Below the pieces are notes generated by a model that was not told where the DNA came from, did no database searches, and was given only the letters and a program-made list of their open reading frames with translations. A stretch of DNA of 40,552 bases from Pseudomonadota bacterium (lineage in GTDB: Bacteria; Myxococcota_A; Polyangia; Fen-1088), in NCBI GenBank assembly GCA_017881315.1, contig JADGRB010000013.1, forward strand, positions 1 to 40,552, read 5' to 3'. Position numbers and translations under genes: made by a program. This document shows positions 4,420 to 16,059 of this stretch, one piece after another. The number at the start of each line of letters is the position of its first letter. Position 1 is the first letter of the stretch.

Positions 4420-5556
4420 TCAGCGGCCGAAGATCACGATGTCGTTGCGGCCGCTCTCGCGCGTGCGTTTGAGGACCGCCAGCTTCTTGCCGCCCGCGGC
4501 CCACGCGCAGCTCTCCGCCCCTTCGAGCGGGATCTGGCCGAGCAGGGTGGCCCGGGCCGAGCCGAGGCTCACCTCGAAGAGGTGCAGCGCGCGGGTGCCC
4601 TTCTTGTGCGCGGCCACCTGATCGGGGTTGAGGGGATCGACGGTGAGCGAAAAGAAGAACTGATCCACCGACGGCGGCTGCATCAGCGAAGCCGCCTCGT
4701 AGAGCGAGAACTTGGTGGGGAGGGCCAGCGGGCGGAGCTTCTCCCCCGGTCCGACCAGCTCGAGCCCGGCGGAGTCGTCATCCACCCGGACGAACGTCTC
4801 CAGCCCCGGCTTTTCGGCGCGCTTGTCGGCCAGGCGAAGGAACGCCGGGCTCGAAGGCAGGGTCTTCGCGGGGGCGGTCTTGCCCGACAGGATATCGAGG
4901 ACGGCGAGCTCGGTGCCTCCGCGCACGTCGGCCCTGGCGTCGTATCGTCCGGCTTTCTTGACCAGGGCCTGCAGGTACCCGCCGCTGAAGGCGACGAACT
5001 GCAACCCCTGGCTGCCGGCCAGGGTCCCATCGGCGCCGATGGCGACAAGCTTGCTGCCCATCGGCGCGCCGTTTGGTTTGTAGGCGACGATGTTGTAGGC
5101 GTGGCCGGCCGGCGTATCCCCCTTGTCGGTCACGGTGACGAAGCTCTTGCCGCGAACGCCGGAGAGGACGCAGTCGCCGAACGCACCGATCTGGTTTTCG
5201 ATTCGCCCGGTCGGCCCCACCACGGCCGCGCGCCGAGCACCCTCGTTGGAGATCACGAACCAGTGCCCGCCCAGGAACAAGATCTTCTCTGGATCGTGGG
5301 TGAACGACGTGATGTCGGTCGTCGAGCTGCGGCCGCCGGGCGGGCCCACGTGAAGGGTCGTCTTCCCCGTGGGGTCGGTCTTGACGTAGGCGAGCTTGGC
5401 CCCACCGTCGGAGAACGCGAACGCCTCGTGGAGGACGCCGTCGTCCGCGGCGATCTTGGCGATGGGCTTCATCTGGGGCGCGGCCCACGACGCCGTCGGC
5501 ACCAGCGCGAGGCCCGCGGCGACCACTCCACGAAAGACGGCGGTTCGGTGCTTCAT
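4420..5556 (-). CDS. Secreted propeller-like protein, last gene of the TonB operon
   Basis: This 378-residue protein starts with a clear signal peptide (MKHRTAVFRG, a hydrophobic core, then a site near SWA-AP at residue 25). The rest is rich in short beta strands with recurring turns such as AFSDGGAKLAYV, FSGGYLQAL and WAAGGKKLAVL. These resemble TolB or WD-type propeller blades, although no family signature is certain. The ATG at 5556 is favoured by AGGGAG about 8 bases upstream and by the signal peptide; the frame continues upstream into the TonB gene without sense. It starts 17 bases after the tonB stop. A periplasmic or surface role in recognition or assembly for the receptor system is inferred from position only. 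Confidence 0.72.
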   Translation of the reverse strand: MKHRTAVFRGVVAAGLALVPTASWAAPQMKPIAKIAADDGVLHEAFAFSDGGAKLAYVKTDPTGKTTLHVGPPGGRSSTTDITSFTHDPEKILFLGGHWFVISNEGARRAAVVGPTGRIENQIGAFGDCVLSGVRGKSFVTVTDKGDTPAGHAYNIVAYKPNGAPMGSKLVAIGADGTLAGSQGLQFVAFSGGYLQALVKKAGRYDARADVRGGTELAVLDILSGKTAPAKTLPSSPAFLRLADKRAEKPGLETFVRVDDDSAGLELVGPGEKLRPLALPTKFSLYEAASLMQPPSVDQFFFSLTVDPLNPDQVAAHKKGTRALHLFEVSLGSARATLLGQIPLEGAESCAWAAGGKKLAVLKRTRESGRNDIVIFGR

Positions 5557-5573
5557 CGTCAAGCTCCCTCTGG

Positions 5574-6323
5574 CTACTCGTCGTTCTGCAGCAGGAAACG
5601 GATCTTGAACCCTCGAACCCGCACCGCGACCGGCGCCCCGTCCTTCTCGCCTGGACTGAAACGGCACTCCTTGAGCGCGGCGATGGCCGCCTCGGTCAGC
5701 CCGTGCTCGAGCCCGCTCACCACATGGATGTCGCGAGCGCGACCGGTCTCGCTCACGATCAGATCGAGGATCACCGTTCCCTCGATGGCCGCGCGCTTCG
5801 CCTCGTCGGTGTACTTGCCGACGCAGCGACCCTGGGGAAGCGGCATGGTCGTCACCTGATAAGCGGGAACGGGCGCCATCGCCCCCTTGGCGCCGCCGTG
5901 CGCCACGGCGTCCTCGGTCGCGCCGACCGCGCCGCCGCTGTTGCCGATCGGCATCGCCGGCCCGCTGCCAGCCTGCGAGGTCGACTCCATCGTCACCCCG
6001 AAGACGGGGCCGACCGGACCGGTGTTCGCGACCTGCGGGCGGTCCGGCGGCGGCGCCTCCTGCCTGGGGAGATCGGTCGTGGGCGGCGCGGCGGTGCGCA
6101 CACGGGCCCGGACGTGCGTCACTTGCTTCGGCGCGGGCGCTCGCGGCGCCGCGGCCGGCTCCGGTGGCGGTTCGACGGTGGGCGGGGTCGACACGACCCG
6201 CAGCGAGATGATTCGTTTCGCGGTGTCCGTCCGCCTCGGCAGGCGGCCGAGGCCGTTGGCGAGCGCCAGGTGGCCCACCACCGAGAGCCCGGCGCAGATG
6301 AGCAGCCGCGAGTCTCGAATCAT
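5574..6323 (-). CDS. tonB: TonB-family energy transducer
   Basis: The 249-residue protein has an N-terminal membrane anchor (about 7-25), a Pro/Ala/Arg-rich periplasmic spacer (45-105) and a TonB C-terminal domain (170-245). Domain features include YTDEAKRAAIEGTVILDL, the turn SETGRARDIHVV and the FSPG strand near residue 222. TonB carries energy from the ExbB-ExbD motor to outer-membrane receptors. Its ATG overlaps the exbD stop as ATGA (6320-6323), so the two are probably translated together. Cys167 and Cys220 flank the domain and could form a periplasmic disulfide. The receptor gene encoded upstream in the same operon is the obvious partner. Confidence 0.88.
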   Translation of the reverse strand: MIRDSRLLICAGLSVVGHLALANGLGRLPRRTDTAKRIISLRVVSTPPTVEPPPEPAAAPRAPAPKQVTHVRARVRTAAPPTTDLPRQEAPPPDRPQVANTGPVGPVFGVTMESTSQAGSGPAMPIGNSGGAVGATEDAVAHGGAKGAMAPVPAYQVTTMPLPQGRCVGKYTDEAKRAAIEGTVILDLIVSETGRARDIHVVSGLEHGLTEAAIAALKECRFSPGEKDGAPVAVRVRGFKIRFLLQNDE

Positions 6324-6745
6324 GGGCTTCCGGGCGCGGTCATCGCCGTGGGATCGATCTGGATCGCGAACGAGGCCACGCCAAGCGATTTCACCACATC
6401 GAGCACCCAGACGACCCGACCGTGCGACACCGACTTGTCCCCCGAGATGATGGCCTGGGTCTTGGGGTCCTTGGACACGGCGGCCGATACGGCCTCTCGC
6501 AGCCCAGCGGGCGTCGTCGGGGTGCCGTTGAGGTAGAGGGTTCCGTCCCGGGTCAGGGTGATCGCCAGCGTCGTCGGGTTGAGCGAGGTGCTCTGGCTGG
6601 CGCGCGGCAGCTCCACCTCGATCGCCTGCTTGGCGATCAGGTTGGCGGTCAGCATGAAGATGATCAGCAGGACGAGCATGATGTCGACCAGCGGGGTCAC
6701 GTTGATCTCCGCGATGATGCCCCGCTTGCGGGTGGCCGAGGCCAT
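6320..6745 (-). CDS. exbD: ExbD/TolR-family motor protein
   Basis: The 141-residue protein has the family layout: a short cytoplasmic N-terminus, one membrane segment beginning VTPLVDIMLVLLIIF and a small periplasmic domain. Asp21 within the membrane segment is the conserved proton-carrying residue. The length matches ExbD (about 140). Its ATG shares one base with the exbB stop (TGATG at 6745) and its stop overlaps the tonB start, so exbB, exbD and tonB form one coupled block. TolR is the alternative name, but neighbouring TonB and receptor genes favour ExbD. Confidence 0.92.
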   Translation of the reverse strand: MASATRKRGIIAEINVTPLVDIMLVLLIIFMLTANLIAKQAIEVELPRASQSTSLNPTTLAITLTRDGTLYLNGTPTTPAGLREAVSAAVSKDPKTQAIISGDKSVSHGRVVWVLDVVKSLGVASFAIQIDPTAMTAPGSP

Positions 6746-7416
6746 CAGGCCTTCTCCGCCGCCGCGTCACCGGCCCGCGCGGGGTCGGCTTTGAGCAGGG
6801 CCAGGATCTCGTGGGCGATCACCTCGGAGGCGGAGGCGGCGCGCTCGACCTGCCGCGTGAAGATGTTGTACGCGGCCACCGCCGGTAACGCCACGAGGAG
6901 CCCGACGCCGGTGGCGACCAGCGCCTCGGCGATGCCGGCCATGACGGCCTGGGTCCCCTGCAACGAGTTCCCGGCCAGATCGTGAAACGCGCGAATGATG
7001 CCGAGCACGGTCCCGAAGAGGCCGATGAACGGCGCGTTGTTGCCCAGCGTTCCGAGGAACGCCAGCCGGCGCTCGTAGCGGGCCCGTTCCTGCTCGATCG
7101 CGCCCGCCTTCCTCTCCTCGACCGCGGCGACGCCGTCGCCGGCGTGACTCAGGCAGGCCCGCGCGACGGCCGCTTCCATCGATCGCGCGTCGGTCAGCTT
7201 CGCCAGCGCGGCGGCCGCCCCGTTCTTGCCGAGCTCGGCCACCGCGGCGGCCAGCCTTTCCCTGGGCGGACGCTCCTGTACGTAGAACCAGATTCGATCG
7301 AGCATGATCGTGACCGCCACCAGGCTCAGGCCCAGGAGGAGGTAGAGGACCCAGCTAGACCCACCCCGCAGCATGAGGTCGAGCAGGTGGCTCCCGATGT
7401 CGCTTCCGTTGTTCAT
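6745..7416 (-). CDS. exbB: ExbB/TolQ/MotA-family proton channel
   Basis: The 223-residue product has three membrane segments (about 20-42, 118-145 and 160-185) and the conserved core LGNNAPFIGLFGTVLGI with downstream GIAEALVATGVGLLVALP. These are hallmarks of ExbB/TolQ proteins, which form the proton-conducting stator around ExbD. It starts 12 bases after the stop of the receptor gene and is followed immediately by exbD, which puts the energy module inside the operon of the receptor it probably drives. The name ExbB is by context; sequence alone also fits TolQ. Confidence 0.92.
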   Translation of the reverse strand: MNNGSDIGSHLLDLMLRGGSSWVLYLLLGLSLVAVTIMLDRIWFYVQERPPRERLAAAVAELGKNGAAAALAKLTDARSMEAAVARACLSHAGDGVAAVEERKAGAIEQERARYERRLAFLGTLGNNAPFIGLFGTVLGIIRAFHDLAGNSLQGTQAVMAGIAEALVATGVGLLVALPAVAAYNIFTRQVERAASASEVIAHEILALLKADPARAGDAAAEKA

Positions 7417-7428
7417 GGCTTCTCCTGG

Positions 7429-10119
7429 TCAGAATCTCGCTCGCAAGCCCACCGTCGGTAGGACGTATCGAATCACGGTCCCTGGTTGGATCTCCTCCGG
7501 GAGGAGAGCCACGTTGGTGATGTCGACGTAGAAATCGAGCAGCCACTTCCTCCAGACCGCCCGCTTGTCGACCCGAAGGTCGATGCGCCAGTAACCGTCG
7601 TTCCGCCCGGCGTTGTATCCGGGCGTCGGGTTCGCGGGCGTCGCGGGCGTCGGATCGCTGATGGTCGTCGGACGGCCGCTCTGGAACTGACCGCGCAGAC
7701 CGAGATCCCAGTTGCGCGGCAGCCGCATGCCGAGAACCAGGTTGAGGAGCTGGACGCGGTCGAAGTCATAGGGCTTCCAGGTGCTCCCCTGCAAGCGCTC
7801 CGATCGCGACAGAGTGTACGAGATCCAGCCGAACAGGCCCGACTTCGACTGGCGGCGCAGCAGGAGCTCCAGGCCATACGAGCGCCCGATCTCCGGGTGG
7901 GTCAGCCGATCGATGAACACCTGCGCGTCCATCGCCTGCGTGATGATGGCCGTCGGGAGCACCGTCTGGTTCGGCGGGGTCCCCACCGTGCTGCTGTTCA
8001 CCGAGAGATCGAAGATGGTCGGATCCATGTAGTTGAAGTAGCCGTCCACCGAGAGCTGGAAGTGCTGCCGCAGCGGGATCTCGGCGCCCAGGCTGGTTTG
8101 ATAGGACCGAAGCAGGCCGTACTTGAGCGGCAGCATGTCGAGACCCGGGAGCGGCAGCACGAACCGGGGCGGCTGGTGATAGATCCCGGCGCTCCCCTTG
8201 AGCCACACGGCGCTGTCGTCGCTGCCCGGCGGGACGTCGGGGAGGTCGCGATCGAAGAGACGGTAGCGGACGGTGAGGCGAGGATCGACGGAAGATTTGG
8301 TGGCCGTGTCGTCCTCGTAACCGTCGACGCGCAGACCGGGGCGAATCAGGATCCGCGGCGTCGGTCGCCACAGTGCCTCCAGATAGGCAGCACCGACGTA
8401 GGACTTGGCGAGCGACGAGGTGATGGCGGCCAGGGGCCCGGCCGCGGCGTTCGCCCCCGTGCCCTGCACGATATCGCGCAGGGCGCCCCAGAGACCGGCG
8501 TCCAGCGTCAGCTTGTCGCTTACGGCCCAGCGCGCAGAGACCGACGGCTCCGCGAGCCAGATGGTGAAGTCGGTCCCCATGCTGAAGGTGTGGTCGTAGC
8601 CGAGGACCAGACGGTACGTCTCGTCCAGGCGCCCCTGCGTCTGGTGATCGCGCAGGTCGATGCGGTCGAATCCGAGCACCAGAGCAGGCGCGAGCGCCGG
8701 GGCGGGGCTGCCTGGCGTGGAGGTCACCGCCCGGGTGTCGAGCTCGTCGTTGGCGCCGTAGGCAAACACCGTCCAGCCGTTGCGCGCGTTTCCGCCGTCG
8801 AGGCGGAGCTGGTAGTCCCAGTAGGAGAGCGAGATCTGGTTGGTCGCGAGGCCGAGGAGGAACCCCGGGTAGCCGTAACGGGCCGCCGCCGTGAAGGTCA
8901 CCCCGAGCGGCGCGATCGGCTCGCGCACGAAAGCCCCCGACTGCAGAAGGTTGAGGTCGAAGTCGAGCAGGTGCTCGTCCGGGCGGGCGCGCGCCGTCCG
9001 ACCGTCGATGATGCCGCCGGTGTATTGGCCGTAGGGGGCCGGCGCGCCGCCCGGGTAAAATTGGATCTCGTCGATGAACTCCGGGTGCACGACGCTGGTC
9101 CCGACGAGCAGGTGATAGAGCAGCGGGATCGTGGTCCCGTCGAGCAGAAATCCGGTCGAGGCCGGGCTGGCGCCGCGCACCACCGGAAAGGGCAGCAGCG
9201 ACACGACCGAGGCCACACCGGGAAGGGTCTGAATGACCCGGAACGGATCGCCGAAGGTGCCCGGGATCTGCTGCAGCTCGGCTCCGCGCAAGGTGATGCG
9301 GGAGACCTCCTCGCGGTGCTGCTCGCCGATCACGACGATCTCGTAGGGGTCGTAGCGATCGCGCTCCACGAAATAGCTGACCGCGAGCTCTTGCGCCGGC
9401 CCCAGCGTCTCCTGCTGCAGGAACGGATTGTGGCTGGGCGCGTAGACCGAGATGCGGGCCGTTCCGGGCGGCAGGGGCAGACGGAACCGCCCGCGCCGGT
9501 CGGCGTCGACCGAATATCGCCGCTCACCGACCAACGCGGTGACCGTCGCATCGGTGACGGGCGCGCGCGTGCCGAGCTCGATCAGCTTGCCGCGCAGGAC
9601 CGCGGTCCGCGGCGGACCTTCGTCGACCGCGCGAACGGGCGGAGGGGGCGGCGGCGGGAGAAAGGTGTGCGTGAAGGTGATCTCGACGGGAACGGGCGAT
9701 CCGGCGTAGCGCGCCGGCGCGAACCGAAACCCGCGCGCCGCCGCGACGACCGCCTCATCGAAGATCGCCTGGGCAGGGGTGCGAACCTCGACCTTCTGAA
9801 CCGTTCCCGCCGTGTCGACCAGCAGCTTCACTGTCACGACGACGGGCGCCCTCTGCGCAGGCGCGCCCGGGGGATACGGGACGTTGGTCTCGCCGAGCGC
9901 GCGGGGCGGCTCGAAGCTGGGAGCGGCGTCGCCCGCGGCCCCCGCATCGGCGTGCGCGGAAGCATCACCGAGCGCTCCGCTGTCGACCACGTCGGCGCCT
10001 GCGTCGGTCTGCGCCGCGTCGGGTTTCGTTTGCGCGAAACTGGCACGCGACAAGGAGACCGTGGAGGCGACCACTGCGCAGGCGAAGATCGTCCGGCTCA
10101 CCGCCACGTGAACCCCCAT
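7429..10119 (-). CDS. TonB-dependent outer-membrane receptor with N-terminal TonB-like domain
   Basis: The 896-residue protein has a signal peptide ending near SFAQ (residue 30), then an Asp/Ala-rich stretch (31-66). A TonB C-terminal-type domain follows (about 75-153, with VVVTVKLLVDTAGTV and FRFAPARY), then a poly-Pro run, a carboxypeptidase-regulatory-like beta domain (about 172-250), a plug domain (about 268-390, with LPGVASV and FLLDGTTIP) and a large beta-barrel ending in Phe. No STN signalling domain is seen. An ATG at 10119 and a GTG at 10101 are both possible starts; the GTG would overlap the upstream stop as GTGA and still leave a good signal peptide. The substrate is unknown. The exbB, exbD and tonB genes follow directly. 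Confidence 0.9.
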   Translation of the reverse strand: MGVHVAVSRTIFACAVVASTVSLSRASFAQTKPDAAQTDAGADVVDSGALGDASAHADAGAAGDAAPSFEPPRALGETNVPYPPGAPAQRAPVVVTVKLLVDTAGTVQKVEVRTPAQAIFDEAVVAAARGFRFAPARYAGSPVPVEITFTHTFLPPPPPPPVRAVDEGPPRTAVLRGKLIELGTRAPVTDATVTALVGERRYSVDADRRGRFRLPLPPGTARISVYAPSHNPFLQQETLGPAQELAVSYFVERDRYDPYEIVVIGEQHREEVSRITLRGAELQQIPGTFGDPFRVIQTLPGVASVVSLLPFPVVRGASPASTGFLLDGTTIPLLYHLLVGTSVVHPEFIDEIQFYPGGAPAPYGQYTGGIIDGRTARARPDEHLLDFDLNLLQSGAFVREPIAPLGVTFTAAARYGYPGFLLGLATNQISLSYWDYQLRLDGGNARNGWTVFAYGANDELDTRAVTSTPGSPAPALAPALVLGFDRIDLRDHQTQGRLDETYRLVLGYDHTFSMGTDFTIWLAEPSVSARWAVSDKLTLDAGLWGALRDIVQGTGANAAAGPLAAITSSLAKSYVGAAYLEALWRPTPRILIRPGLRVDGYEDDTATKSSVDPRLTVRYRLFDRDLPDVPPGSDDSAVWLKGSAGIYHQPPRFVLPLPGLDMLPLKYGLLRSYQTSLGAEIPLRQHFQLSVDGYFNYMDPTIFDLSVNSSTVGTPPNQTVLPTAIITQAMDAQVFIDRLTHPEIGRSYGLELLLRRQSKSGLFGWISYTLSRSERLQGSTWKPYDFDRVQLLNLVLGMRLPRNWDLGLRGQFQSGRPTTISDPTPATPANPTPGYNAGRNDGYWRIDLRVDKRAVWRKWLLDFYVDITNVALLPEEIQPGTVIRYVLPTVGLRARF

Positions 10120-10934
10120 TGCACGGTCCCACCCGTGTGGGGCCACCACTGGCGCCGGACGATCGCCTGGCCGGTGTCGAGGTCGACACGGCCGGTGTCG
10201 TCGACGCACCCCGTCCATTGGCCGACCGCCTCGATCGCGAAGCTGGTCGCGGAGCGTGGCCCGAGGACGATCGTCCACTCCGCGCGTGCGAGCGCGGCGA
10301 TCCCGACACCACTGCAGCTCGGCAGCGGTGGGCTCGGGCCTGGGAACGTGTACGACGAGCTGAGCTCGCCTGGCAACGGACTGACGTCCGGGCGGCTGGT
10401 GCTCCCCTCGACGATGCCGCCGAACCCCAGACCGACCGCGAGCGAAAGATGAGACGTCGCGTGCCAGGTGGGATCGATGGTGCCGGCGAAGCGCAGGCCA
10501 TCGATGCCGCCTGCCGAAGACGCCCGCGCATATTGGAGCGACGCCAGCAGAGACCAGTCGGGATCGAGCCGAACTCCGAGGCGCAGCAGGAATCCCAGCA
10601 GCCTGCCGCTCGGCGCGCCCTGCAGGCCGACCAGATCGCCATACGCGACGCCCAGCCCCATTCGGAAGCCGCTCCTACGCCAGGCATCGCGATCCGCCTC
10701 CGTCGGCAGCGAGAGCTTCGGTTCCCCCTCGCTGTCGCTGGGCGCGGCGGGCGGTGCCGCGGCCGGCGGGGCGATCGCCGCTCGCACGTCCGGGGGCGCG
10801 GACGACGGCGACGTTGCGCCGGGCAGAGGCGCGGTGCCCGGCGGCGGCGCGGCGCCCGCCGGAACGGCGAGCGCGAGTGCGATCACGAATGTGGCGCGCG
10901 CCGTCGACCGTTTCAGCTTGGGCACGGCCACCAT
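10098..10934 (-). CDS. Putative outer-membrane beta-barrel protein
   Basis: The 278-residue product has a signal peptide (MVAVPKLKRS, hydrophobic core, AGA at about residue 28), a Pro/Ala-rich linker (29-70), then a region from about residue 90 of alternating hydrophobic strands and Gly turns. Examples are FRMGLGVAYGDL, GFLLRLGVRL and LSLAVGLGFGGI, as in small outer-membrane barrels. It overlaps the upstream lipoprotein gene by 22 bases and the receptor gene by 4 or 22 bases depending on the receptor start. No specific family is recognised. Its position between a lipoprotein and the TonB-dependent receptor suggests a component of the same surface assembly. Confidence 0.7.
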   Translation of the reverse strand: MVAVPKLKRSTARATFVIALALAVPAGAAPPPGTAPLPGATSPSSAPPDVRAAIAPPAAAPPAAPSDSEGEPKLSLPTEADRDAWRRSGFRMGLGVAYGDLVGLQGAPSGRLLGFLLRLGVRLDPDWSLLASLQYARASSAGGIDGLRFAGTIDPTWHATSHLSLAVGLGFGGIVEGSTSRPDVSPLPGELSSSYTFPGPSPPLPSCSGVGIAALARAEWTIVLGPRSATSFAIEAVGQWTGCVDDTGRVDLDTGQAIVRRQWWPHTGGTVQWGFTWR

Positions 10935-12025
10935 GCGGGAGGATTCGCGGTGAAGTCCCAGTCGGGGACCGGGCAGGCGACGTTCTCTCGGCAGCCGCGC
11001 AGCGCGTAGTGCGTCAGCCCTTTGCAGTGATCGGTCGACCGGCCCGAGACGACGAACTGAATGAGGTTCGGCTGATTGCCCGCGTCGAACGACGGGAGGC
11101 TCGCGCAGGCCGAAACACGGTCCCTGAGATCCGGCATGTCGGCGGGTGGCTCACGGTATCGGGTGGTGCCGTCCAGCGTGCGCTCGGTGCAAGAGACCTC
11201 GTTGACGTTCGCGGGCGCCTGCGCGCCGATGGCCACCAAGGTCGTCTCGGGCACGCCACCGGTGCAGGTATTTGGATCCTCGGGCGGCAAGGTCCCCGCG
11301 ATCGACGAGGTGAAACCTGCGGCCGCCGAGAAGCCGCCCGCGCCGAGCACAGAAAATCCGTTCGTGAACAGCGCCGGCTGATTCCCCGGATCCGGACAGC
11401 CGCTGCGCGGGTAGAAGGCGCTCGTCTCGTCAAACGTTCCGTCGAGGAATAGCACCCGCTCGTCGGGCGCCGTCATCGTGAGGAAGCTGGCGCCGTAGAT
11501 GACGTCGGCGGAGTCGACCGAGTCTTGCTGGGGCGGGCCGTCTCGCCCGAAGGCGCTCGAGTGTGGCGTCGAGAGCTCGAGCGTTCCGCTCCCGTCGCGA
11601 TCGTCGAAGAAGACCAGGCTGGCATAACCGACCCGCGCGGTGCTCGCGCCGACCAAGACATCAGTCGGCGGCTGCTCGAAGAGCGGCAGCGAGCTGGGCG
11701 CTCCGATGTTCACCGGCACGCTGGCTGCCACGAGCGCCGGGACGAATCCGAACGGATCGCGGCAGCCGGCGGCGATGACGGCGGCGGCGCTGTCGGACTC
11801 GGGCGGCAGGATGCAGAACGGCTCGATCCACCACTGCGCCCCCCACACCAGCGCGATCCGCAGCGACACATCGGAGGTGACGCCTGGCGGCCGGAGCGAT
11901 CCGAGATCACCGGTGGCCTCCACCTGGAACTGGACCAAGGGTGGCACCGCACCACCCAGTCCCTCCAGCTTGCTGCAGCCCGCGGACAGCGCACAGGAGA
12001 GAACGAGAAGGCCCACGCGCCTCAC
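10913..12025 (-). CDS. Putative lipoprotein in the TonB operon
   Basis: The 370-residue product begins MRRVGLLVLS and has a lipoprotein-like signal ending in SAGC (Cys17). The lipobox is imperfect because Leu is at -4 rather than -3. The mature protein is rich in beta-prone sequence and Cys residues, with RYASLVFFDDRDGSG-like Asp/Gly turns that could bind calcium, and no family is recognised. I prefer the GTG at 12025 because it overlaps the upstream stop as GTGA (12022-12025); a GTG at 12034 would add three residues. It is probably an outer-membrane or periplasmic lipoprotein working with the flanking barrels, by position only. Confidence 0.7.
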   Translation of the reverse strand: MRRVGLLVLSCALSAGCSKLEGLGGAVPPLVQFQVEATGDLGSLRPPGVTSDVSLRIALVWGAQWWIEPFCILPPESDSAAAVIAAGCRDPFGFVPALVAASVPVNIGAPSSLPLFEQPPTDVLVGASTARVGYASLVFFDDRDGSGTLELSTPHSSAFGRDGPPQQDSVDSADVIYGASFLTMTAPDERVLFLDGTFDETSAFYPRSGCPDPGNQPALFTNGFSVLGAGGFSAAAGFTSSIAGTLPPEDPNTCTGGVPETTLVAIGAQAPANVNEVSCTERTLDGTTRYREPPADMPDLRDRVSACASLPSFDAGNQPNLIQFVVSGRSTDHCKGLTHYALRGCRENVACPVPDWDFTANPPAWWPCPS

Positions 12026-12585
12026 GGCTGCCACCCGACGCCAATCAGACTGACCCAGCCGCCGCGCAGGTTGCCGCTGTCAACCGCCGCGCTCGGCCCG
12101 CCCGCCATGTTGAACAGCCAGGGGCCGAAGACGTGCACCGCCACGAAGGCCTCGACCTCGCCGGCGGGCAGCGTCGAAAACGCCGAGGTCTCGAGGGTGC
12201 TGCTATTTCGAAGGCGGGTCTCGTGCACGATGGTCGGACCCACGCCCAACCGGAGTCCGACCCGCGCGCGCCCGAGCGTGTGCTGGATCACGCCACCCAC
12301 CCGCAGCCTGAGATCGGATTGAGTGACCGTCCAGGCAACCGACGATTCCGTCGCGGTGGACCAGGACGCCCGCGCCTCCCACGCCAATACCCGACCGCGC
12401 GTGACGCCGATCCCAAAGCCGGTCGAAAGGCCTGGAACGAGCGCCGTGGGCAGTGCGAACACGAGACCCCCGTCGACGGTGAGGGGACCGCTCGACCGCA
12501 CGCGCAGATCGCCCCCGGATCCGTCACCACGGGATGGAGCGGGCATGAGCCCGACCAGCAAGACCGCGATGGCGAGCCGCCGCAT
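12022..12585 (-). CDS. Putative outer-membrane barrel protein
   Basis: The 187-residue protein has a signal peptide (MRRLAIAVLLVGLMPAPSRG) and a body of short amphipathic strands such as GGLVFALPTAL, GFGIGVTRGRV and VGLRLGVGPTI. This fits an eight-stranded or similar small barrel. The ATG at 12585 was chosen because the signal peptide starts there. The gap of 52 bases to the preceding Cys-repeat gene is the largest within the operon. The next gene begins with a GTGA overlap. No specific family is recognised. Confidence 0.68.
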   Translation of the reverse strand: MRRLAIAVLLVGLMPAPSRGDGSGGDLRVRSSGPLTVDGGLVFALPTALVPGLSTGFGIGVTRGRVLAWEARASWSTATESSVAWTVTQSDLRLRVGGVIQHTLGRARVGLRLGVGPTIVHETRLRNSSTLETSAFSTLPAGEVEAFVAVHVFGPWLFNMAGGPSAAVDSGNLRGGWVSLIGVGWQP

Positions 12586-12637
12586 CACCCGATTATTACC
12601 TCGTCGGCGAGGAGAGTATTCGGACCCATGGTTGAGA

Positions 12638-13276
12638 TCAGGGCGGCGCGACACACGTCCAGCTGGCGGGATCGCAGAGCTGGGGTGATCCGCAATCGCT
12701 CGATGAGGTGCATCCGACGCATTGGCCCACGGTTCGATCGCAATGGCGAGTGGGGTCGGAACAACCACCGTCGTCGATACAAGCCACGCAATGGCCGAGT
12801 GCGGGATCGCAAGTCGGACGCCCGTGGTCGGTGCAGTTCCCGGAGGTCGCGCACTCGGCGCAGGTTCCCCGCGCGGCGTCGCAAGTTTGGTCTTCCGGAC
12901 AGTCCGCCATCGACAGGCAGGTCTTGAGACAACGACGGGTGGTCGGTTCACAGACGTATCCGGAACCGCAATCTTGGGCGACGCCGCACTGGACGCAGCG
13001 ATGAAGGGCAAAATCACAGCGCGGGCGACCCGAGCTCGTGCATTGATCGTCGAAAACGCAGGCTACACACTGTCCCGAAGACTTGTCGCAGTGCAGGGCG
13101 GTCAGGTGACAGTCGGTGTCGGAGACACATCCGGCGGTCCCGGCCTCCGCGTTCTGGTCATCGAAGCGAAGCGCGACGCGACAACCGAGGGCTGGCAGGA
13201 GGGTCGCACCGAAAATCGCCAGCGTGAGGACCGCTCCGAACGATCTCGGCGGTCCTCCTCGACCTCCGCGGTTCAT
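12638..13276 (-). CDS. Cys-repeat secreted or lipoprotein with seven four-Cys repeats
   Basis: The 212-residue product has a hydrophobic signal (about 13-31) ending LPALGC, a probable but imperfect lipobox with Cys32. Residues 50-208 hold 28 Cys in seven consecutive repeats of the form C-x5-C-x5..7-C-x6-C joined by 2 or 3 residues, for example C50, C56, C63 and C70, and finally C189, C195, C201 and C208. Such regular spacing points to small disulfide-bonded modules stacked in a rod. Similar Cys-rich repeats occur in myxobacterial surface proteins. The ATG at 13276 overlaps the fecR-like stop as ATGA. Its place directly after the sigma/FecR pair suggests a surface sensor or ligand-capture part; this is inference. 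Confidence 0.8.
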   Translation of the reverse strand: MNRGGRGGPPRSFGAVLTLAIFGATLLPALGCRVALRFDDQNAEAGTAGCVSDTDCHLTALHCDKSSGQCVACVFDDQCTSSGRPRCDFALHRCVQCGVAQDCGSGYVCEPTTRRCLKTCLSMADCPEDQTCDAARGTCAECATSGNCTDHGRPTCDPALGHCVACIDDGGCSDPTRHCDRTVGQCVGCTSSSDCGSPQLCDPASWTCVAPP

Positions 13277-14322
13277 GGCGGCGAGGGAGTCGAACCGATC
13301 AGCCGCGCGCGTTCGACCGTGGCGGTCTCTCGGAGCGGGCTCGCGGGGAACCTGGCCAGCAGCAGGTCGAGGAGCTGCACGGCCGCTCGCCGGTCCCCCG
13401 CGCTCTCGGCCTTGAGGGCTCCACCGAAGAGATCGTTCTCCGTTGCGAGCGTCGAGACGGAGACACCGTCTGGCGCGGAGCTTCGCAGAGCCGCCGGGCG
13501 GGGCGACGCCTGCCGCCGCGGCTCGCCCCGAGCCGGTGGCGTCGGCGATTCCGTGGGAGCCGCAGAGCTCGCCCGCTCGGCACAGTCGGCAGGCCAACCG
13601 CGCCCCGCCTCCACCCGCGATTGCCGTCCAGAAGAGCGGACGACCACCACCCCCTCGGTCACCAATACCCGGGTGACCGTGCCCTGGCCGCAGTCGGTGA
13701 CGGCTGGAACGACCGCGACGCGAAAACGGGTTCCGCGCACCTCCACCTCCGCGTCGGGCGTCGCGATCACGAAGCGCTCGCCGGATTTCAGCTTGGCGAC
13801 ATGCACGTCGACGGCGCCGCTCCCGAGCCGCAGCCAGCGCTCGTCGTCGGCGCGCACGAGCTGTAGGTCCGAGTGGGGCTCCACCTCGACGGCGCTATCG
13901 TTTCTCATGGCCAGAGCGACCGGCCGCTCGTCCGTTCGCAGCTTCTCGCCCGATCGCCATTCCTGCCCGGCCAAAAGAGGATGCGACAAACCGCCCGGCG
14001 CCACGACGGTGGCGCCGGCAGCCCCTTCGGCCATGAAAGTCGGTTTGTCGCTCGCGGTCGCAGCGCCAGCCGAGGCCGTCGGCGCAGGTCGCGTCGAGCG
14101 GGTCAGGGTCCACCCGACCATGCCCGCCGCGGAGACGACCGCCGCCGTCGCCGCGATCGACATGCCGATCCGCCGGCGCCGCCGCCTTCCCGCCGTGCTG
14201 CGAATGACGCTCGCGAGCGTGGCGACCGCGTGGGCGGGCGGCGCCGCCGGGTGCGGTCCGATGCGTCCTCGAGCCGCGCGCAGAAGTCGCGCCCCCAGGT
14301 GGGCATAGCGATACTCCTTCAT
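13273..14322 (-). CDS. FecR-like transmembrane regulator
   Basis: The 349-residue protein has an Arg-rich cytoplasmic N-terminus (1-50), one membrane segment (52-73) and a periplasmic FecR-type beta domain (about 125-235). That domain includes GEKLRTDERPVALAM, the ALE-like strand ERWLRLGSGAVDVHV and TPDAEVEVRGTRFRV. A Pro/Ser/Arg linker follows, and then a helical TPR-like stretch (about 295-340, with AESAGDRRAAVQLLDLLLARFP). FecR proteins sit in the inner membrane and control a partner ECF sigma factor. The gene overlaps the sigma gene as ATGA (14319-14322), which supports a partnership. The TPR-like tail is an addition to the basic FecR layout and may bind another protein. Confidence 0.85.
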   Translation of the reverse strand: MKEYRYAHLGARLLRAARGRIGPHPAAPPAHAVATLASVIRSTAGRRRRRRIGMSIAATAAVVSAAGMVGWTLTRSTRPAPTASAGAATASDKPTFMAEGAAGATVVAPGGLSHPLLAGQEWRSGEKLRTDERPVALAMRNDSAVEVEPHSDLQLVRADDERWLRLGSGAVDVHVAKLKSGERFVIATPDAEVEVRGTRFRVAVVPAVTDCGQGTVTRVLVTEGVVVVRSSGRQSRVEAGRGWPADCAERASSAAPTESPTPPARGEPRRQASPRPAALRSSAPDGVSVSTLATENDLFGGALKAESAGDRRAAVQLLDLLLARFPASPLRETATVERARLIGSTPSPP

Positions 14323-14987
14323 GGATCGCCCCGATCCAGGATCTCGGTCAGCTTGGCATCGTCCGCGACTCGTTCGTGAAGCTCGCGTCTGCCCCGCACC
14401 AGACGACTCTGGGCGGCAGCGGCCGATATTTGGCAGATGTTCGACACCTCCTCCAGGGAATATCCGCAGACGTCGTGGAGGACGAATGCCCAGGCGCGAT
14501 CCGGGCTCATCGCCGCCAGGTGCTCGGAGATCCGCCTGAGGGCGTCACGAAGGTGGGCCGTCGCGGTAGGTCCGCTGGTCGGAGAATCCTCGAGGAGGTC
14601 GTCGTCGCCCGGGGTCGAGACGAAGATGTTGCGTTCCAGTCGCCGCCGCCGGATGTGCTTGTAGACGACGTTCGCCGATACGGCGGAGACCCAAGCGTCG
14701 AGCGGACACTCCCCGCGGTAGCTCGGCAGCGATTCGATGAGCTGCACCAACGCGACCTGAACGATGTCCTCGCCGTCGCTGTCGAGCCGTCCCAGCAGCC
14801 GGCGGACAGTCCGATCCACGACCGGTTTGACGCGCCAGTAGAAGTCCCCGGCGATGCCGTCGTCACCGCGGCGGAGGGCCGCGAGAATCTCGTCGTCGCT
14901 ACGGGACGCACGCCCTGGGGCGGGTTCCGGGCGCACCCCGGCGACCACGCTCAGGGAGGGACGACGGGGTGAACGAAAGGTCATCAT
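14319..14987 (-). CDS. ECF-family RNA polymerase sigma factor
   Basis: The 222-residue protein has sigma region 2 (about 45-115, with FYWRVKPVVDRTVRR, the DGEDIVQVALVQLIE core and LDAWVSAVSANVVYKHIRR) and region 4 (about 152-205, with LAAMSPDRAWAFVLHDVCGYSLEEVS and a recognition helix near SAAAAQSRLVRGR). These regions recognise the -10 and -35 promoter elements. An extra 30-residue N-terminal extension is present. There are two adjacent ATGs at 14987 and 14984; the first is used. It is the first gene of the overlapping minus-strand operon and presumably directs transcription of it under control of the FecR-like protein. Confidence 0.9.
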   Translation of the reverse strand: MMTFRSPRRPSLSVVAGVRPEPAPGRASRSDDEILAALRRGDDGIAGDFYWRVKPVVDRTVRRLLGRLDSDGEDIVQVALVQLIESLPSYRGECPLDAWVSAVSANVVYKHIRRRRLERNIFVSTPGDDDLLEDSPTSGPTATAHLRDALRRISEHLAAMSPDRAWAFVLHDVCGYSLEEVSNICQISAAAAQSRLVRGRRELHERVADDAKLTEILDRGDP

Positions 14988-15014
14988 TTATCCAGCAAGA
15001 CAAGAGTACCCCGA

Positions 15015-15020
15015 GGTTCC
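15015..15020 (-). promoter_or_regulatory. Candidate ECF -35 element upstream of the sigma gene
   Basis: On the minus strand the leader of the sigma gene reads GGGGGAACCTCGGG, with GGAACC at 15020-15015, followed about 14 bases later by GTCTTG. GGAAC is the common -35 core of ECF-type promoters, so this may be an autoregulated promoter. The spacing to a -10 element is slightly short, and single matches of this size are common, so support is weak. Confidence 0.22.
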
Positions 15021-15033
15021 CCCAAACAGGCGG

Positions 15034-16059
15034 CTAGAAGCGGGAGAGGACCCCAAGCTCGAGCATCAGGCGCTCATGGGGAATCGTGGCGATCATTCGG
15101 CCGGCGACCAGGACATCCGCGGCCGTCAGGGTCTCTTCGAGCCCCCCCCCCAGAAGAAAGACCACTCCCGGCGATAGGCCATACCCGACCTGTCCGAGGA
15201 GATCGCCTCCCAGCGACCAATATCCCTGATCAGACGGGGTCGAGGCGTTGCTGTCTCGGCTGACCTCTTCGTGCAAACCGAGGAGGTCCAGCCGTGCCCC
15301 CAGCCCCAGCTCGTGAACGCGTCCCAGACCTGGGCTGGTCCAGGCGGCACCCAGCCCGGCCGCCGCCGTGCGCGCGGTTGCCTGGGCGCCGTCGACCGTG
15401 GCGACCCGATAGCCGAGCCCCACGCGCAAGGCCAGACCGTGGGCAAGCGATCGGCGCACGGCAAAGGCTCCCCCCAGGGCATCGACGTCGAGACCCTCGG
15501 CGCTGTCGACGATGGTCGTCAGGTTGGCCTCGATCGCCCATCGGGTCGGAAGGAGGGGCGCCTCGCTGGTCGCGATCGCGCGGGCGGCCGCCGGCGGCTC
15601 CGATGCCGTATCCACTGGTCGGGTCGGCAGCGGCGTTGCCGCGACCGTCGCGGAGGCTTCCCTGTTCTTCAGCGATTCGCTTCCCTTGCTCTCGTCGAGC
15701 ATCGAAGCGATGACCAGACCGAGAGTTCGACCGCGCTCGGCGGGTAGATCGCGCGCGCTGAACACGACAGTCCGGGTGATCCAGCCGTGGCCCCGCGCTC
15801 CGGGCGGGGCGAGGGACACCTGCACGTCCGTCGTCAAGAAGGCGGCATCGTGCCAGCTCAAGACGACAACCGCGCTCGCGCCTTCGACCGACGCGTCGGC
15901 CGCCAGGTCCCGATCGTCGGGCATGGTCGCAACCATGCGGACGACGCTCTTGGCGCCCGATTGCATGGTCTCGATGCAGACGGCGGCGGCCGCTTGGGTC
16001 ATGGCGACGCCGCTCGAGTTCGCCGCCACCGCGACCAGCAGCACGACGGGAGCCGTCAT
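15034..16059 (-). CDS. Putative outer-membrane barrel protein with periplasmic N-domain
   Basis: The 341-residue protein has a signal-like N-terminus (MTAPVVLLVAVAANSSGVA). A first domain (about 20-120) alternates beta and helix and includes the segments VVVLSWHDAAFL and WITRTVVFSARDL. After a Pro/Ala linker, a strand-rich region (about 170-341) ends in SRF, a C-terminal Phe as in outer-membrane barrels. A myxobacterial two-part layout of this kind is common among proteins of unknown function. Its stop lies 46 bases before the sigma gene on the same strand, so it is either the first gene of that operon or an independent gene just upstream. Confidence 0.65.
   Translation of the reverse strand: MTAPVVLLVAVAANSSGVAMTQAAAAVCIETMQSGAKSVVRMVATMPDDRDLAADASVEGASAVVVLSWHDAAFLTTDVQVSLAPPGARGHGWITRTVVFSARDLPAERGRTLGLVIASMLDESKGSESLKNREASATVAATPLPTRPVDTASEPPAAARAIATSEAPLLPTRWAIEANLTTIVDSAEGLDVDALGGAFAVRRSLAHGLALRVGLGYRVATVDGAQATARTAAAGLGAAWTSPGLGRVHELGLGARLDLLGLHEEVSRDSNASTPSDQGYWSLGGDLLGQVGYGLSPGVVFLLGGGLEETLTAADVLVAGRMIATIPHERLMLELGVLSRF

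Follow-up and report, generated by a model that had tools for sequence, protein, structure and literature searches.

A twelve-gene minus-strand run in a metagenome-assembled Polyangia genome probably joins a conserved TonB-linked transport block to a signalling cassette and a putative propeller gene

The stretch of DNA analysed here, which we refer to as the window, is the entire contig JADGRB010000013.1 (40,552 nucleotides; C367 in our numbering) of a metagenome-assembled genome from the class Polyangia, 5.47 Mb in 541 contigs. It carries twelve consecutive open reading frames (ORFs) on the minus strand, overlapping or narrowly spaced, from position 16059 down to 4420. A preliminary description made from the DNA letters had taken the eleven ORFs of 4420-14987 as one unit led by an extracytoplasmic function (ECF) sigma factor and a FecR-like protein and holding its own TonB energy module; all eleven lie where it placed them, each with a coding-type GC content at third codon positions. 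Pfam searches confirm its naming of the sigma factor, FecR, ExbB, ExbD, TonB and the TonB-dependent receptor (TBDR), and give no family for the lipoprotein, the two small putative barrels (bar1 and bar2), the Cys-repeat protein, the putative propeller or the gene preceding the sigma gene (Up). As we describe below, the unit of eleven genes does exist in this genome, yet it is probably a local composite and not one ancient machine.

The genes are tightly packed, and the codon overlaps pointed out in the preliminary description are all present: ATGA between the sigma and FecR genes (14319-14322), the FecR and Cys-repeat genes (13273-13276) and the ExbD and TonB genes (6320-6323), GTGA between bar1 and the lipoprotein gene (12022-12025), and a one-base overlap, TGATG, between ExbB and ExbD (6745). 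The GTGA that it had offered as possible at 10098-10101 is likewise there, between bar2 and the receptor gene, for which ATG 10119 is an alternative start. The lipoprotein and bar2 genes overlap by 22 bases, and the intergenic gaps measure 12 bp (TBDR-ExbB), 17 bp (TonB-propeller), 52 bp (Cys-bar1) and 46 bp (Up-sigma), with the bar1 start refined to 12585 and the Cys ORF to 12638-13276. A terminator scan of all gene junctions found no terminator-like site, and a promoter scan was likewise without useful outcome. Co-transcription of the run is plausible from this spacing.

Judged by comparison with about 30 related loci, the run divides into three blocks (Table 1): A, consisting of Up, sigma, FecR and the Cys lipoprotein (12638-16059); B, with the order bar1-lipoprotein-bar2-TBDR-ExbB-ExbD-TonB (5574-12585); and C, the putative propeller gene. 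We consider it probable that the run is a composite of these three separately inherited blocks, with B serving TonB-powered transport, A being a signalling cassette and C contributing the putative propeller.

Table 1. Features of the minus-strand run, by window position; G001 is a genome of the same genus
Feature	Block	Position	Strand	Evidence
Up, 341-residue envelope protein, barrel-like C-terminal half	A	15034-16059	-	72% identical in G001, same position; no Pfam; heads the sigma/FecR cassette
ECF sigma factor	A	14319-14987	-	Sigma70_r2 + r4_2; 83% identical in G001
FecR-domain membrane protein	A	13273-14322	-	FecR 43 bits; 69-70% identical in G001
Cys-repeat lipoprotein, 29 Cys	A	12638-13276	-	ALGC lipobox; regular Cys pairs; 75% identical in G001
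A-B junction, 36 bp		12602-12637	.	Similar to neither G001 contig; DNA matches end at 12638, resume at 12601
bar1, small putative outer-membrane barrel, 187 residues	B	12022-12585	-	Adjoins lipoprotein in 32/33 loci; family alignment A6; no Pfam
Lipoprotein, 370 residues	B	10913-12025	-	Lipobox SAGC; conserved Cys/Trp-rich C-terminus; family alignment A1
bar2, signal peptide and Pro-rich N-terminus	B	10098-10934	-	AlphaFold model, Foldseek
TBDR	B	7429-10101	-	Pfam: N-terminal TonB_C, barrel, with CarboxypepD_reg and plug marginally below cut-off; TonB box YDPYEIVVIGE; conservation in 20 receptors
ExbB	B	6745-7416	-	MotA_ExbB 106 bits
ExbD	B	6320-6745	-	ExbD 109 bits; conserved membrane Asp in TPLVDIML
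TonB	B	5574-6323	-	TonB_C 54.5 bits; N-terminal membrane helix
Secreted protein, putative propeller (label from the preliminary description)	C	4420-5556	-	Relatives 38-42% at other loci; no Pfam

Block B is the part of the run that recurs. Its lipoprotein is present in 24 of the 318 genomes of the class, and uncultured Myxococcota keep its gene order across at least six families. Across the 33 loci compared (window included), the sole locus where bar1 does not adjoin the lipoprotein gene is L124, which has the lipoprotein alone; elsewhere the order bar1-lipoprotein-bar2-receptor is constant, with L067 and L074 stopping short of the receptor. ExbB-ExbD-TonB follow the receptor in 19 of the 22 loci whose contig continues, the others being L089, where they are divergent, and L088 and L125, which are without them. 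Receptors of the block share 54-72% identity with that of the window (G008 is lower, at 47%), whereas no full-length paralogue exceeds 39%. A second same-genus genome (G002) has, at the end of a contig, a partial receptor of 74% identity; the gene after it is convergent and is not ExbB. In L089 (6032-12963) the energy genes diverge from bar1 and do not lie downstream of the receptor; the L125 contig is 50% GC, compared with about 69% in the window.

The lipoprotein appears to represent an undescribed family: none of 20 members matches Pfam, a search of PDB sequences gave no match, and a beta-rich structural model of fair quality (mean pLDDT 81) matches no PDB fold (best E 0.32). All of its named relatives are from metagenome assemblies, and most of these carry the label Myxococcales, Kofleriaceae or Deltaproteobacteria. 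The barrels of the preliminary description fare differently from each other: bar2 is predicted to be an eight-stranded barrel in its AlphaFold model, with confident strands and Foldseek matches to Ail, OmpX, NspA and OmpA, whereas bar1 stays putative. The idea that bar1 and bar2 are duplicates of one another was unsupported on comparison.

Block B has the sequence elements of a TonB-dependent transport system, namely a plug-and-barrel receptor, a TonB box, and ExbB, ExbD and TonB with the ExbD membrane Asp. The receptor's barrel domain scores 49 bits (cut-off 27) and its plug 23.6 bits, marginally below the cut-off of 23.9. Ahead of these lie a TonB_C domain at residues 73-147 and, at residues 169-238, a region that scores 31.4 bits against CarboxypepD_reg (cut-off 32.3); they occupy the place of an STN domain (PF07660), for which Pfam gives no match at E 0.01. 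TonB_C is kept in the 19 block-B receptors that cover that region (20 compared), and almost all of the 20 have a TonB box resembling YDPYEIVV; departures in the box occur in three. Among the matches listed, more than 30 of the 58 relatives searched have receptor paralogues whose alignment starts in or ahead of TonB_C, which argues that the class uses this layout widely. Further long frames with a TonB_C domain, mostly receptors, lie on contigs C93, C282, C359 and C196 of the genome to which the window belongs. We found no description in the literature of receptors fused to TonB_C; a receptor survey gives five N-terminal layouts from other domains and leaves TonB_C unmentioned (PMC6434023). The myxochelin receptor MxcH (NCBIfam NF038079) is alike in its N-terminal TonB_C region, which its model matches at residues 65-158 with 66 bits; the rest of the model is unmatched, and at a cut-off of 925 bits the window receptor was rejected as an MxcH equivalog.

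The dedicated energy module pointed out in the preliminary description is ordinary as such, since other clusters of receptor with ExbBD and TonB lie on C93 and C359 of the same genome, and Myxococcus xanthus has seven ExbBD clusters, of which three include a receptor and TonB, among them that of Oar, the exporter of PopC (PMC6434023). The genome as a whole holds 12 MotA/ExbB, 19 TonB_C and 13 FecR matches.

Block A has a different distribution. Its FecR protein begins with about 50 residues, followed by one membrane helix predicted from hydropathy near residue 52 and then the FecR domain, so arranged that the predicted topology is that of a membrane sigma regulator. The Cys-repeat protein is as previously described, with its cysteines in regular pairs, and is by its lipobox itself a lipoprotein. 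The gene at 15034-16059, proposed as a possible twelfth member, goes with the sigma, FecR and Cys genes, because Up precedes those genes in the same-genus copy. There, Up, sigma, FecR and Cys stand in the same order on contig C326 of G001, followed by unrelated genes, with the block B lipoprotein on another contig, C389. At the DNA level, window 16060-12638 matches C326 (75.8%) and 12601-10564 matches C389 (83.7%). Related cassettes exist in G004 and G009, and no receptor adjoins the cassette in G001, G004 or G009; the window's own genome has a second block A gene set on C345 (L159), with the sigma gene on the opposite strand. Block A is thus, judged by its sequence relatives, a cassette separate from block B. 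Since most relatives carry block B without block A, the arrangement in the window is probably derived.

Four smaller observations concern block A and its edges. Up was tried as a homologue of the gene that stands ahead of sigma in the Kofleriaceae-type loci (A3), and of the first gene of the G005/G010 set (A4); profile comparison probabilities of 1.6% and 4.8% leave only positional equivalence. Behind the cassette in G001, the next large gene (L156:5574-8549) encodes a 991-residue Beta_propel (PF09826) protein. At the Cys-bar1 junction, window 12594-12638 holds a 14-codon ORF (ATG GGT CCG ... GGG TGA); its stop codon shares bases with the ATG of bar1, and it may be due to chance. A tRNA-Ala (cgc) reported by ARAGORN on the plus strand at 12652-12753 lies antisense inside the Cys gene and was set aside as probably spurious.

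The third block shows no tie to the second in other genomes. Relatives of the putative propeller gene, at 38-42% identity, occur elsewhere in the family beside an amine-oxidase-like gene, those of G005 and G010 being transcribed divergently from a sigma/FecR set; in none of the other loci among the 33 compared does the gene adjoin block B.

These distributions bear on whether the run exists in the living genome at all, as A and B, or B and the putative propeller gene, might have been brought together by the assembly. The sequence comes from a single metagenome assembly in many contigs, the similarity blocks each end exactly at a gene boundary, and A and B lie apart in G001. Against such a chimera, the A-B junction DNA is single-copy in the genome and holds no repeat of assembly-word length, the G001 sequence runs unbroken through the ribosome-binding region ahead of bar1, and GC content is equal on either side. 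With junction DNA single-copy, a repeat-driven mis-join is unlikely, and we regard mis-assembly overall as an unlikely account of the arrangement.

If the run is intact, it could be one integrated machine, an obligate unit of eleven or twelve genes in which sensor, switch, outer-membrane parts and motor are inseparable both in evolution and in function. Tight spacing and overlaps run through its whole length, and another family also has a sigma/FecR set beside block B, though divergent and with a different sigma factor. Such sets diverge from bar1 in four Kofleriaceae-type loci (L069, L071, L073 and L077), at 39-201 bp in the three measurable ones, and their sigma factors share only 27-30% identity with the window's where blastp-type matches were found. 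Genomes of this type have only 4-9 FecR genes in 8-12 Mb, which makes chance adjacency to block B improbable; they share ancestry and are not independent cases of adjacency. Close to block B in a further locus, L074 (561-6532), lie a different sigma factor and a VIT/vWA/FecR protein of 1780 residues. In other lineages the regulator is of another kind: in L078, L079, L081 and L085, from one genus of the window's family, TonB is followed by a histidine kinase and an NtrC-type regulator (assignment checked with Pfam on L078). Up, Cys and the putative propeller adjoin block B in no other locus, and in G001 the halves lie on separate contigs, among unrelated neighbours. An obligate unit is accordingly very unlikely in our estimation. 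The block B regulator instead appears exchangeable, as it stands elsewhere as a divergent sigma/FecR set or is replaced by a kinase and NtrC-type regulator. Of the complete surface machine proposed earlier, the outer-membrane parts and power supply hold up, conserved as block B in about 30 genomes, whereas the sensing and switch genes sit elsewhere in the genus and the propeller is not beside block B in relatives; by the same token, a search for the gene order in relatives recovers that of block B and not that of all eleven genes, A and C being at other loci.

A sigma factor, a FecR protein and a receptor in one run also recall FecI/FecR/FecA, in which the receptor would sense its ligand and signal via FecR to a sigma factor controlling its own operon. 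The pairing of ECF sigma with membrane FecR, overlapping by ATGA, is found in the window as in that system. The window receptor differs in its want of STN, so that nothing indicates that it signals to FecR in the classical FecA manner, and the sigma/FecR cassette is separable, has its own Up and Cys lipoprotein genes, and elsewhere stands without a receptor beside it. We therefore hold Fec-type control by the receptor to be improbable; because block A occurs without a receptor next to it, Up or the Cys lipoprotein is the more likely sensor.

As to function, the most likely role of block B is TonB-powered uptake across the outer membrane, most likely of a scarce or bulky ligand, the direction of transport being our reading of the gene set. 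A receptor with a marginal CarboxypepD_reg match, encoded beside a lipoprotein, is reminiscent of SusC/SusD of Bacteroidota, from which block B differs in having its own ExbBD/TonB and a lipoprotein that matches neither SusD in Pfam (20 members searched) nor any sequence or fold in the PDB; a SusD by homology was rejected on these grounds. The closer parallel may be Oar of M. xanthus, a myxobacterial TBDR with a TonB box, linked ExbB/ExbD/TonB and a CarboxypepD_reg extension (PMC6434023), the last of these having only a marginal counterpart in the window receptor. This likeness to a proven exporter raises the alternative that block B exports or displays a protein, as Oar does PopC, instead of importing a ligand. 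Import is the rule among such receptors, and block B is accompanied by no conserved cargo gene in the neighbourhoods compared; we consider export rather unlikely. Oar differs in that its export of PopC is proven, in that its extension is described with PF13620 only, with no TonB_C, and in that its description mentions neither a conserved lipoprotein nor small barrels (PMC6434023). It is doubtful that block B forms a distinct class of TonB-driven machine, in which the receptor's TonB_C would cooperate with the block's own TonB, perhaps as its partner in a pair, the lipoprotein and small barrels would form a stable complex with the receptor, protein would be exported or displayed, and regulators would be swapped between lineages.

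Several points weigh against a composite built around an uptake system. The A-B join is seen in one metagenome contig only, as the B-propeller join rests on one assembly; the G001 contig breaks inside bar2, and its block B is visible only that far; the neighbourhoods of block B yield no clue to a substrate; and Oar demonstrates that such receptors can export protein (PMC6434023).

We nonetheless favour the composite, and the observed gene content and order, block boundaries, conservation, TonB box and domain make-up suggest how it might operate. An envelope signal at Up and/or the Cys lipoprotein would act on the inner-membrane FecR protein, which would control the ECF sigma factor. With block A directly upstream of block B across a 36-bp junction, transcription from A could read into B, placing transport under the control of A; co-transcription and sigma/FecR control of block B are what we infer from this arrangement. 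The lipoprotein and small barrels would assist the receptor at the outer membrane, with lipoprotein and receptor capturing the ligand, and the dedicated TonB would open the receptor plug through the TonB box, with ExbB and ExbD providing proton-motive force. The gene at 4420-5556 comes after TonB.

The comparison brings out a transport module of seven genes that recurs in lineages represented here by metagenomes only and that includes a lipoprotein family without relatives in Pfam or the PDB. Its receptors, with their domain resembling the TonB C-terminus, appear to exemplify a layout that is common in the class and for which we found no literature description. Set beside its same-genus relative, the window would offer an example of a signalling cassette becoming joined to a transport operon.

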